Shown here: piece after piece, positions 6,768 through 9,479 of the stretch
Numbering within the stretch: the first letter of the stretch is position 1
How the letters are laid out: each line of letters starts with the position of its first letter
From: Arthrobacter sp. HY1533
GTDB taxonomy: Bacteria; Actinomycetota; Actinomycetes; Actinomycetales; Micrococcaceae
Direction: 5' to 3'
DNA: 64,000 bases
Assembly (NCBI RefSeq): GCF_027568515.1
Contig: NZ_JANKZF010000013.1
Span: 124,001-188,000, forward strand
Made by a program: the position numbers and the translations under genes
The notes under the pieces: model-generated
Seen by the model: only the letters and a program-made list of their open reading frames with translations
Told to the model about the DNA's origin: nothing
Database searches by the model: none

Positions 6768-7004
6768 TTACCCTGTATGCGCCGAACCGGGGGTTCCATG
6801 CGTCCCTGTGCCATCCACCACTGCCGATTGCAGGTAGTGTTCGACGGCGTTGGCCGGGACCCGGTAGGAGCGCCCGAAGCGCACGGCGGGCAGCTCGCCG
6901 GCGTGCACCATGCGGTACACGGTCATTTTTGAGACGCGCATGAGGCCGGCCACCTCTTGAACCGTCAAGAAGTTCACATTGGAGAAATCCTGCTCCTGCG
7001 CCAT
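6768..7004 (-). CDS. Excisionase/BldC-like helix-turn-helix protein
   Basis: The 78-residue protein has one MerR-like/excisionase HTH: FLTVQEVAGLMRVSKMTVYR followed by the wing GRSYRVPANAVEHYL. It is a cytoplasmic DNA-binding protein of the small family that includes Rv0500A, which pairs with the bS22-type gene in many actinobacteria. The C-terminal 20 residues are Gly/Thr-rich and look disordered. The start is the ATG at 7004. The gene ends 114 bases upstream of the bS22 gene on the same strand, so cotranscription is possible, although a separate bS22 promoter could fit there. The target genes are unknown. Confidence 0.85.
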   Translation of the reverse strand: MAQEQDFSNVNFLTVQEVAGLMRVSKMTVYRMVHAGELPAVRFGRSYRVPANAVEHYLQSAVVDGTGTHGTPGSAHTG

Positions 7005-7150: not shown

Positions 7151-8269
7151 CTAGGCTGCGGCGCCGCGGCGGGTGCGCGAGGCGCCGGCCAGCTGGGCCA
7201 GCACGTCCGCTGTGACATCCCAGTCCATGCAGGCGTCGGTGACGGACTGGCCGTAGACCAGGCTGGCCGTGCCGGCGGCGACTTCCTCGACGTTCAGGCT
7301 TTGGGCCCCGCCAACCAGGAAGCTTTCCAGCATGATGCCGGCGATGGTGTGTGCGGAATCGTCGCCGGTCTCCAACTGGGCGGCAATTTCCAGGGCCACC
7401 TCGGCCTGGCGGTGGTGGCTCTTGCCGGAGTTGGCGTGGCTGGCATCGACGATCAGGCGCGGGTTGACCCCTGCCGCGGCAGCCTTCGCAGAGGCATCCG
7501 CAACGTCGGCGGCCTTGTAGTTGGGGCCCTTGCGTCCGCCGCGCAGGATCACGTGAGTGTCCTGGTTGCCGGCCGTGCTGACCAGCGAGGCGCGGCCGCT
7601 GCCGTCGATCCCGAGGAAAGACTGCGCTGCACTGGCTGCGTTGCAGGCGTCGAGGGAAACCTGCAGGTCGCCGTCGGTGCCGTTCTTGAAGCCGACCGGC
7701 ATGGACAGGCCCGAGGTGAGCTGGCGGTGGATCTGGCTCTCGGTGGTGCGGGCCCCGATGGCGCCCCAGGAGATGAGGTCGGCCGTGTACTGGGGGCTGA
7801 TGGGTTCCAGGAACTCCGTGCCCGTGGGCAGCCCCAGCTTGGCCACCTCGAGCAGGAAGTCCCGTGCCATGCCCAGCCCTGTGGCGACGTCGTGGCTGCC
7901 GTCCAGGGCGGGATCGTTGATGAGGCCCTTCCAGCCCACTGTGGTGCGCGGCTTTTCGAAGTAGGCGCGCATCACGATCAGCAGGTCTTCCTCGTGCTCC
8001 TTGGCCGTGGCGGCCAGGCGGCGGGCGTATTCCAGGCCGGCCTTCGGGTCGTGGATGGAGCACGGGCCCACCACCACCAGGAGGCGGTCGTCCACGCCGT
8101 CCATGATGGCCCGGACCTGGTCGCGGCCGCGTTCGACGACGTTGCCCGTGTGCGCATCCAGCGGCAGCTTCTCTGCCAGTTGGGCCGGCGACGGCAGTTC
8201 GGTGAAGTGGCTGACGCGCAGGTTTGCGGTGGCGGGCTGGCCGGTTGTTTCTGCTGCTGTGATGCTCAT
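7151..8269 (-). CDS. aroG: 3-deoxy-7-phosphoheptulonate synthase, class I (DAHP synthase)
   Basis: Catalyses condensation of phosphoenolpyruvate and erythrose 4-phosphate, the first step of the shikimate pathway. The 372-residue protein has the class I signatures VVVGPCSIHDP near residue 70, MRAYFEKPRTTVGWKG near 105 and IVDASHANSGKSHHRQ near 270. Class I enzymes are usually feedback-inhibited by an aromatic amino acid; which one cannot be read here. The ATG at 8269 has AGGAA 8 bases upstream. Translation is preceded by a 190-base leader holding a short aromatic-rich peptide and hairpins (separate entries), so the gene is very likely controlled by attenuation. AroQ of the same pathway is at 63.2 kb, unlinked. 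Confidence 0.93.
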   Translation of the reverse strand: MSITAAETTGQPATANLRVSHFTELPSPAQLAEKLPLDAHTGNVVERGRDQVRAIMDGVDDRLLVVVGPCSIHDPKAGLEYARRLAATAKEHEEDLLIVMRAYFEKPRTTVGWKGLINDPALDGSHDVATGLGMARDFLLEVAKLGLPTGTEFLEPISPQYTADLISWGAIGARTTESQIHRQLTSGLSMPVGFKNGTDGDLQVSLDACNAASAAQSFLGIDGSGRASLVSTAGNQDTHVILRGGRKGPNYKAADVADASAKAAAAGVNPRLIVDASHANSGKSHHRQAEVALEIAAQLETGDDSAHTIAGIMLESFLVGGAQSLNVEEVAAGTASLVYGQSVTDACMDWDVTADVLAQLAGASRTRRGAAA

Positions 8270-8333
8270 GGGAAGAATTCCTAGGTTGGGCTGTCAGCGA
8301 GCCCCTTTTCAGATGCCCGCCGGAAATGGCGAA

Positions 8334-8418
8334 GGACAGAGAAAAGTTTTCTCTGTCCTGTTGGCTCTGAAGGAAGTTGGATGCGTGTCAGTTAGACGCG
8401 GGCCCCTCCAGAGCCAAC
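8334..8418 (-). promoter_or_regulatory. Attenuator hairpins in the DAHP synthase leader
   Basis: Read on the minus strand, segment 1 (8418-8405, GTTGGCTCTGGAGG) lies inside the leader peptide frame just after its Phe codon. It is complementary to segment 2 (8373-8360, CCTTCAGAGCCAAC). Directly after segment 2 comes a perfect 12 bp hairpin with a single-base loop (arms 8358-8347 and 8345-8334, GGACAGAGAAAA / TTTTCTCTGTCC). A ribosome stalled on the Trp/Tyr/Phe codons would cover segment 1 and release segment 2. The hairpin lacks a classic T tract after it, so whether it terminates transcription or masks the ribosome binding site is unresolved. Confidence 0.72.
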
Positions 8419-8447
8419 GAAAAATACGCATACCAACGGTTTGTCAT
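8388..8447 (-). CDS. Aromatic-rich leader peptide of the DAHP synthase gene
   Basis: A 19-residue frame reads MTNRWYAYFSLALEGPASN. Five residues (5-9) read Trp-Tyr-Ala-Tyr-Phe, so four of five are aromatic amino acids, the end products of the pathway encoded downstream. A GATAAT -10 box ends 21 bases before the ATG, giving a predicted 5' leader of only about 13 bases. The stop codon is 118 bases before the DAHP synthase start. The arrangement is that of ribosome-mediated attenuators such as trpL and pheL. An aromatic leader peptide upstream of a DAHP synthase gene has been described in Corynebacterium (aroR), to my knowledge, but this sequence was recognised here from the codons alone. Confidence 0.8.
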   Translation of the reverse strand: MTNRWYAYFSLALEGPASN

Positions 8448-8467
8448 GCCCACACCATACGCCGGAA

Positions 8468-8473
8468 ATTATC
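8468..8473 (-). promoter_or_regulatory. Predicted -10 box for the DAHP synthase leader transcript
   Basis: The minus strand reads GATAAT here, overlapping the stop codon of the upstream esterase gene. With 17 base spacing the -35 would be TTACGT, which is weak. The predicted start point, about 8461, puts the leader ATG 13 to 14 bases downstream, the geometry expected for an attenuator. Confidence 0.5.
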
Positions 8474-9479
8474 CCGCCAGCAAATCGGCCACGTAACGCA
8501 GCTGCGCAAGCCACTGGTGTTCCTGCCCGCCTTCGTGGTTGTTGAAGCGGTAGTAGACCATGTCCTTTGCGGGCTTTTGGGGCGTTTGAGTGCCGTAGCC
8601 GTTGAAGGATCCGTAGACGGTGGATGCGGGGCAGACATCGTCCTGGCCGGCCGCGGAGTACAGCGCCGGGGCGGTGCAGCGGCGGGCCAGGTGGACGCCG
8701 TCAAAGTAGTTCAATACCTCGAGGCAGTCCGCGTAAGAGGCGCGGTGGCGCTTGAGGAACGCGGCAATTTCCGGGTACGGCCCGCGGACGGCCAGGTCGA
8801 TGGAGCGCGGGAAGTCCTGCAGGAACGGGACGTCGGGCATGGTGGCGATAACGCCGTCGAGCCGGCCAGCTGCCAGGCCCGCGGCGGCAATGGCCAGCCC
8901 GCCGCCCTGGCTGATGCCGGTCAGGATCACCCTGGCCGCGTCGACGTCCGGGTGTGACTGCGCCGCTTCGATGGCACGGAAGGCGTCCACGTAGGTGCGG
9001 CGGTAGTAGTAGCTGTCGCGGCTGGCGATGCCGCGGGTCATGAGGCCCGGGTGGGCCACGTCGCCGGCGGAAACGTGGGGGTCGGGAGTGTCGCCGAGCA
9101 GCCCGCCGTAGCCCTGGCCGCGGGTGTCCATGATGAAGTGCGCGTAGCCGGCCTGCGCCCAGGCGGTGTCCTGCTGGACCATGCCACGGCCGCCGGAGTA
9201 GCCAATGTACTGGACCACGACGGGCAGTTTCTCGCCGGGGGTGCGGTTGGCCGGCAGGTGCAGCCAGCCCAAGACCCGGTCCCCGCCAAAGCCTGCAAAG
9301 CTCACGTCAAAGCTGTCAATGACAGTCAGCAGGTTGTCCACGGCGGTGAAGCTTGCGTCCAGCGGCAACCCGCGGGCCTCGGAGATCGTGGCATCCCAGA
9401 AGGCGTCAAAGTCGGCAGGCTCAACGGCCGCGGACTGGTATGCCTGAAGTTTTTCGAGGGGCAGGTCGAATTGGGGCAT
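8469..9479 (-). CDS. Acetyl xylan esterase / cephalosporin C deacetylase family (CE7)
   Basis: The 336-residue alpha/beta hydrolase has the CE7 signatures: DTRGQG at 118-123, the nucleophile elbow GISQGG (Ser190), the acid around GQDDVCP (Asp280) and NNHEGG (His315). CE7 enzymes remove acetyl groups from short xylo-oligosaccharides and other small esters. No signal peptide is present, so it acts in the cytoplasm, usually on imported sugars. It lies on the same strand as the rhamnose catabolic genes, separated from rhaB by 227 bases with a large palindrome. It could deacetylate imported plant oligosaccharides, but membership of the rhamnose regulon is not shown; no matching operator was seen upstream. 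Confidence 0.88.
   Translation of the reverse strand: MPQFDLPLEKLQAYQSAAVEPADFDAFWDATISEARGLPLDASFTAVDNLLTVIDSFDVSFAGFGGDRVLGWLHLPANRTPGEKLPVVVQYIGYSGGRGMVQQDTAWAQAGYAHFIMDTRGQGYGGLLGDTPDPHVSAGDVAHPGLMTRGIASRDSYYYRRTYVDAFRAIEAAQSHPDVDAARVILTGISQGGGLAIAAAGLAAGRLDGVIATMPDVPFLQDFPRSIDLAVRGPYPEIAAFLKRHRASYADCLEVLNYFDGVHLARRCTAPALYSAAGQDDVCPASTVYGSFNGYGTQTPQKPAKDMVYYRFNNHEGGQEHQWLAQLRYVADLLAG

Follow-up and report, generated by a model that had tools for sequence, protein, structure and literature searches.

An aroR-type aromatic leader and alternative RNA pairings upstream of the class I DAHP synthase gene in Arthrobacter and its relatives

DAHP synthase sets the carbon flow into all aromatic amino acids. 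In the 64,000-nucleotide stretch of Arthrobacter sp. HY1533 DNA analysed here (the window), a class I DAHP synthase (DAHPS) gene (7151..8269, minus strand; taken from the ORF list, with homologues found in relatives) is preceded on the same strand, across a gap of 118 nt, by the short ORF MTNRWYAYFSLALEGPASN (8447-8388, minus; ATG...TGA, 20 codons including the stop). This arrangement raises the question of whether the short ORF belongs to an attenuator that reads the supply of aromatic amino acids and, if so, through which device it acts on DAHPS. The leader frame upstream of DAHPS with aromatic residues at positions 5-9, as claimed by the earlier note on this DNA, was confirmed: W5, Y6, A7, Y8 and F9 are encoded by TGG TAT GCG TAT TTT (8421..8435, minus), control codons that are near-invariant at the nucleotide level.

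Our search of the Micrococcaceae (f1) found class I DAHPS in 59 of 149 genomes of the family, and an RWYAYF-type leader stands at each of these 59 loci. In this comparison of upstream regions, which the earlier note had suggested, the lack of conservation that it named as refuting was strongly contradicted. The core codons are conserved as nucleotides (n = 59: CGT 58, TGG 59, TAT 59, GCG 59, TAT 58, TTT 58). Since all 59 loci have the leader and its six core codons are nearly invariant, the leader is not a product of chance. The leader Tyr sites carry TAT in 117 of 118 cases (the remaining one being AAT), and in the DAHPS stretch of the same 59 loci (a maximum of 900 nt per DAHPS match) TAT makes up 1 of 252 Tyr codons and TTT 6 of 355 Phe codons; the leaders retain Tyr and Phe codons which the DAHPS genes shun. 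A scan of named contigs with the leader pattern yielded at least 118 stretches (80 of them given as L179-L258), the genera among the matches listed being Arthrobacter, Pseudarthrobacter, Paenarthrobacter, Sinomonas, Paeniglutamicibacter, Kocuria, Zhihengliuella, Microbacterium and Humibacter. L192 (titled Sporosarcina) and L252 (a Nocardioides MAG) show a leader pattern of the Micrococcaceae/Microbacterium type, and contamination or misbinning is possible for both.

A -35-like TTGCTG (8478..8483, minus) and a -10 box TATGGT (8454..8459, minus) give the window the promoter layout TTG-N18-TATGGT. Counted from the leader ATG, the TTG begins at -37..-35 in 48 of the 59 relatives and TAnnnT at -14..-12 in 58 of them; in the 59th, L027, TAnnnT lies at -15 from a second ATG, that is, at -12 from the first. 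None of five SD-like strings was found before the leader ATG in any of the 59 Micrococcaceae leaders. The GATAAT box with a 13-base untranslated leader, which the earlier note had predicted, was not borne out; considered as a promoter, GATAAT was found in the window alone (1/59), and it is the TAnnnT and TTG positions that are conserved instead. It follows from the TTG-N18-TATGGT promoter that the leader mRNA is probably leaderless, its predicted start being at or beside the leader ATG. aroR and other attenuators of Corynebacterium glutamicum were reportedly described as leaderless by Neshat et al. in 2014. Leaderless leaders are likewise reported for Streptomyces lividans in the accessible part of PMC8079986. 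The mycobacterial cysteine-responsive short ORFs (Canestrari et al. 2020; PMC9031893, in the parts available) resemble the window in being leaderless small ORFs whose codons sense an amino acid, with attenuation of the genes behind, and differ from it in their cysteine codons and in the genes concerned.

The surroundings of the locus may be described briefly. The -35 element of the leader promoter (8478-8483) falls within the final codons of the upstream ORF (8469-9479), which by eye looks like an esterase, and sugar-kinase-like and dehydrogenase-like ORFs stand farther upstream. Just downstream of DAHPS (6768-7004) there is a small helix-turn-helix ORF (MAQEQDFSNVNFLTVQEVAGLMRVSKMTVYRMVHAGELPAVRFGRSYRVP...), which we take to resemble a BldC-type regulator.

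Segment 1 (UUGGCUCUGGAGG; 8417-8405, minus) pairs with segment 2 (CCUUCAGAGCCAA; 8373-8361, minus) over 13 bp including one G-U, extended to 14 if another G-U is counted, and the 12-bp hairpin 3:4 follows segment 2 (8359-8333, minus), both in agreement with what had been noted before. Next comes the P3 hairpin, CGCC (8331-8328) with GGCG (8321-8318) (8318..8331, minus). Segment 5 and the helices 5':6 and 6:7 lie outside the coordinates of the earlier note and were missed there: segment 5, AUCUGAA (8308..8314, minus), is the second partner of segment 2; segment 6 (GGGGCUCGC with the following CAGCCC; 8288..8305, minus) pairs with GCGGG (5':6) or forms a local hairpin; and the DAHPS Shine-Dalgarno (SD) sequence AGGAA (8278..8282, minus) is where 6:7 pairing is species-matched in relatives and weak in the window. 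Helices 2:5, 3:4 and P3 together make a three-way junction with a short linker, and the GGCG(GG) strand can alternatively close over segment 5 by pairing with segment 6 (5':6).

Two alignments were made. The first (A1) comprised 46 of 62 leader references and omitted 15 of the 59 Micrococcaceae loci, whose 3' parts are long or built differently; for the second (A2), 101 leaders were entered, 97 parsed and 66 kept, after the removal of 22 without a rule-found P3, six judged misparsed or atypical by hand and three duplicates. The leaders were aligned with MAFFT without knowledge of the structure. Over the 66 leaders, 1:2 with 3:4 is 96.5% paired, with 13 pairs altered in both partners (0/500 shuffles), and 2:5 with 3:4 and P3 is 96.3% paired, with 12 two-sided pairs (0-1/500 shuffles), percentages which lean towards the structure, most of all for P3, the parser having sought these structural parts; slid versions of the helices reach a pairing of only 36-58%. 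Two-sided changes occur in 8 of 10 pairs of 3:4 and in 2 of 4 pairs of P3, which is 100% paired because the leaders were selected for a complementary P3; P3 is truly absent from some leaders, such as L044, L051 and L056-L058. Column 66, in segment 2, covaries with both partners of this segment (UA43/CG17 with segment 1, AU42/GC17 with segment 5), its change from A to G being accompanied by U to C in segment 1 and by U to C in segment 5. Judged on aligned sequences, this comparison shows the predicted helices 1:2, 3:4, 2:5 and P3 together with the aromatic-codon leader, and shows 1:2 and 2:5 to be predicted pairings that exclude one another. The Rfam 15 covariance models gave no match at gathering score in the window and none at E up to 5 in 8200-8560.

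The conservation of the peptide itself, which is high among the 59 Micrococcaceae leaders, would suit an arrest mechanism in which the RWYAYFxxALE peptide, conserved as it is, acts within the ribosome as the sensor of an aromatic compound. The peptides vary widely between families (RWYWRF, RRWRYF, RWFTYA, RFYF), and the ALE part is explained by the RNA segments. At locus L010 (leader 2826-2644, minus) a one-base insertion after codon 11 shifts the frame (MTNRWYAYFSLCSGGARV) and alters the C-terminal half of the peptide, with segments 1 and 2 intact; L010 is a natural separation of the peptide from the RNA. Nascent-peptide arrest was considered and dropped as very improbable.

Beyond the Micrococcaceae, leaders stand before DAHPS in six further families (f8, f11, f13, f19, f22 and f38), seven with f1. 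The leader was found at 3/3 loci in f19 (two of them from the pattern search), 7/7 in f11, 17/17 in f13, 15/15 in f8 plus 0/2 extra copies, 31/31 in f22 (three via the RNA model) and 19/19 in f38 (all via the RNA model), counts that are not independent of the expected structure because candidate starts having a TAnnnT box and a segment-1 complement were preferred. In genus g230 of f22, the genus of C. glutamicum, the leader was found at 15 of 16 loci (14 new loci, L305 and L316). The order holds DAHPS in 74 of 297 genomes, at 93 places; 60 loci of the order were read, including some repeats from f1, and these cover all places outside f1 and f4 and 13 of the 36 in f4. At those 13 f4 loci no leader was judged real, L143, without Tyr and without a -10 box, being the sole f4 locus that passed the leader rule; no leader was judged real at the extra DAHPS copies L133 and L134 either. 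Most f4 genomes have two class I DAHPS places each (L135, L137-L148).

A covariance model built from the 66 leaders matched in 33 of 296 genomes of the class, at one place each. Of 26 further loci (L153-L178, L172 being an f8 place already found), 24 are next to class I DAHPS, and L177 and L178 are not. Searching with the DAHPS protein gave matches in 65 of 81 genomes of the family of G557, where all 30 loci read have a candidate leader, and in 15 of 61 genomes of g230. In many of the f38 and f22 leaders (L153-L176) the ORF also contains a local GGCUCC-GGGN-GGAGCC hairpin, which would be in competition with 1:2. Other aromatic runs (RWYWRF, RWYWF, RRWRYF, RWFTYA, RWQVYA, QYWF) occur in f8, f11, f13 and f19; the combination of Trp, Tyr and Phe codons, for which the earlier note had recommended comparison, is common in relatives and not peculiar to the window genome.

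The C. glutamicum aroR leader was recovered among these relatives. A 19-mer from a published primer beside aroR (PMC7356990, in its accessible text) matches 2 of 242 g230 genomes. At L341 the aroF start is as given in the available part of that paper, and the leader MFAARFYFMSGSGASPRQLAISCAT contains the F-Y-F run with which AroR is described in the accessible portions of PMC11802643 and PMC4046766. Segment 1 of L341 (CGGCUCCGG) pairs with CCGGAGUCG, and the 3:4 hairpin and a T6 run follow. The segment-1 core of L341 lies in a different reading frame of the ORF (SGSG versus APG), which points to the RNA, and not the peptide, as what is conserved. Judged by gene, position, promoter layout and predicted RNA core, the window leader is an aroR homologue; as its relatives precede DAHPS in six further families including that of C. 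glutamicum aroR, it belongs to the aroR kind, and the proposal of an aromatic leader-peptide attenuator of this kind before class I DAHPS is thus supported. Common to both are class I DAHPS downstream, a short aromatic ORF, a -10 box at leaderless distance, a segment 1/2 helix with the same core and the 3:4 hairpin. They differ in that aroR carries an F-Y-F run, lacks Trp and has T6 behind 3:4, whereas the window has W-Y-A-Y-F and no T tract; moreover, the C. glutamicum genus is without matched SD pairing, while the window has the additional P3 and segments 5 and 6. An RFYF run occurs within g230, and F-Y-F versus W-Y-A-Y-F is a motif difference inside one homologous series, not a difference of kind.

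As to the output, the control of C. glutamicum aroF is called translational in the accessible text of PMC7356990, whereas the available part of a review (PMC11802643) names transcription and states that Phe limitation induces and that Tyr availability is without effect. Attenuation of transcription at 3:4 (or by Rho), as described for C. glutamicum aroR, would accord with the presence of 3:4 throughout the aligned leaders, with the T run that follows it both in C. glutamicum and elsewhere in its genus (4-6 T in 14 of 15 g230 leaders) and with runs of 5-6 T downstream of the leader stop codon in the Micrococcaceae loci L044 and L051 and in 8 of 31 f22 leaders. In the window itself 3:4 was rejected as a T-tract terminator: there is no terminator-like site at 8250-8560, and so the remark of the earlier note that a T tract is missing holds. 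T runs are of 3 or 4 in 50 of the 59 Micrococcaceae leaders and of at most 4 in 57; furthermore, no conserved helix that would break 3:4 was found, and segment 5 is transcribed only after 3:4. By eye, no antiterminator was found in the C. glutamicum leader L341. The trpL-type attenuators of Corynebacterium and Streptomyces (PMC1262725) share with the window the control codons in a leader and the alternative helices, and have a terminator and an antiterminator with poly-U, neither of which is found in the window. A 2:3 antiterminator against a U-tract terminator, the classical trp/phe arrangement, was not found either, segments 2 and 3 lying a few nt apart, being non-complementary by reading and having no T tract behind them. 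Taken together, we regard transcription attenuation as unlikely here; the output is most likely the initiation of DAHPS translation and not a U-tract terminator. The Micrococcaceae loci L044, L051 and L056-L058 have no P3 and carry a run of 4-6 T behind 3:4, and by eye their segment 5 can pair directly with segment 6; they are perhaps intermediate between relay and terminator forms.

We hold it slightly more probable than an even chance that the leader is a ribosome-mediated attenuator of class I DAHPS, namely the version that Micrococcaceae have of the actinobacterial aroR type, in which an RNA relay gates translation. The position of the ribosome on the leaderless leader mRNA would decide the state. 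If the ribosome waits at the Trp/Tyr codons upstream, segment 1 would stay free and 1:2 would form; segment 5 would then be free, 5':6 would hold segment 6 and the SD would be open (ON). A ribosome reaching the stop codon would sit between segments 1 and 2, upon which 2:5 and P3 would form and segment 6 would be released onto the SD (6:7), turning expression OFF. This assignment of ON and OFF is inferred from the geometry of codons and stop, from the masking results and from the parity of the relay. In 153 of 167 leaders the stop codon is separated from the segment-2 core by 12-26 nt, and a terminating ribosome would therefore sit in the 1:2 loop with segment 2 uncovered; the leaders outside this range are three from f1, three from f13 and 8 of 16 from g230, some of them perhaps misparsed. 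Across families the aromatic codons mostly precede the segment-1 core by 8, 11, 14, 17 or 20 nt, Tyr/Trp mostly by 11-20 nt, Trp mostly by 14-20 nt and Phe mostly by 8 nt.

Masked-ribosome RNA folding was performed on 61 of 62 leaders (58 from f1 and three f19 rows, one place, L071/L091, being present twice), and dependence on the footprint edge was computed for 53 of the 62; the footprint values are those of E. coli. Without a ribosome 1:2 is already dominant (0.70, 61 leaders), and with a stall at Trp5 or Tyr6 it stays formed (0.95 and 0.97; Trp5 59/61). With Phe9 in the A site and the widest footprint (mask to +15), the mean p(2:5) is 0.68 and 2:5 exceeds 1:2 in 58 of 61 leaders. For Phe9, 2:5 prevails with the wider of the assumed footprints, and a Tyr8 stall is intermediate, its outcome depending on the assumed footprint edge. 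The claim of the earlier note that a stall covers segment 1 and frees segment 2 is thus predicted to hold for Phe9 at the widest footprint and partly for Tyr8, and not for Trp5 and Tyr6, where the model keeps 1:2. The Phe9 result tells against the relay, in that a stall there masks half of segment 1 and favours 2:5, the OFF state, opposite to Trp5; the response of C. glutamicum to Phe and not Tyr supply, reported in the review, likewise counts against the relay.

These observations speak for the classical direction. Here a stall at Tyr8/Phe9 would let the ribosome cover segment 1 and so set segment 2 free, 2:5 would be the ON state, and segment 5 or another element would otherwise block the SD. 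Besides the Phe9 masking and the response of C. glutamicum aroR to Phe limitation reported in the accessible part of PMC11802643, genus g10 speaks for it: in L009, L011 and L013-L015 segment 5 complements the SD in state A (p 0.67-0.87), and the SD is less paired in state B (0.53-0.66) than in state A (0.77-0.79), a pattern absent from the g10 member L027. A ribosome at the Trp codons, which for the most part lie 14-20 nt ahead of segment 1, would leave that segment unmasked, however, and as a general rule a pairing of segment 5 with the SD was rejected, as it is not species-matched (578/2000 permutations overall, 75/2000 in f1); moreover, the predicted 6:7 pairing goes up in state B. We consider the classical direction doubtful, if a somewhat better candidate than a terminator at 3:4.

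For the relay, the duplex energies of 2:5, 5':6 and 6:7 are species-matched over 62 leaders (each 0/2000 permutations, which do not keep relatedness; control pairs 962/2000 and 1402/2000). In f1 alone 6:7 gave 23/2000, with one control reaching 9/2000, and in f13 alone 5':6 (1522/2000) and 2:5 (116/2000) were not significant. With a wider definition, SD pairing is matched in f22 (0/2000), f38 (7/2000), f13 (0/2000) and f1 (1/2000), and is not matched in g230 (1961/2000) or f11 (1829/2000), f8 being borderline and not passing (110/2000). From these pairings it is supported that 2:5 (with P3) would exclude 5':6 and that a segment 6 outside 5':6 may pair with the SD region (6:7). From state A to state B the predicted 6:7 pairing rises from 0.29 to 0.51 in f1 and from 0.41 to 0.67 in f13; the L019 and L029 types are examples with strong predicted SD pairing. 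In the window p(5':6) is 0.74 in state A, the state-B fold has a local segment-6 hairpin and 6:7 is weak (0.01-0.02 predicted); throughout the window's genus there is hardly any pairing of segment 6 with the SD, its partner being a CAGCCC just upstream of the SD. Comparing the two states in 71 leaders, the SD was more open in B, opposite to the relay, in 12, all from f1, and less open in B in 12 (5/40 f1, 1/2 f19, 0/6 f11, 5/16 f13, 1/7 f8); for the window SD the values are 0.36 and 0.39. Equilibrium folding gave no consistent change in SD accessibility, the mean SD pairing being 0.66 without a ribosome and 0.61 with a Phe9 stall.

In the open literature a wider leader family was not found in the texts available, the pertinent ones among the matches listed being papers on C. 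glutamicum aroR and a 2005 survey. That survey gives no conserved structures for phenylalanine and tyrosine operons (PMC1262725). The accessible parts of PMC10272879, PMC8079986 and PMC5784534 name other leaders and not a DAHPS leader, and a term search of the available text of PMC4833913 was negative. Among actinobacterial DAHPS leaders C. glutamicum aroR is the studied one that was found in print, and reviews take it for a transcription attenuator.

Tentatively, and with somewhat less than an even chance of being right, we propose a class-wide actinobacterial aromatic sensor with a multi-strand relay (1-2-5-6-SD), whose logic would be inverted with respect to E. coli trp (a stalled ribosome would lead to 1:2 and ON, and absence of leader translation to expression), and in which the C. 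glutamicum genus would have replaced the SD relay by a terminator and retained the sensing half. That half is found in seven families, and in most of them the output looks translation-level, with a three-way RNA junction; one sensor would thus be joined to two different output devices. The leader may offer a direct test case of how an RNA reads the exact position of the ribosome on a leaderless ORF.
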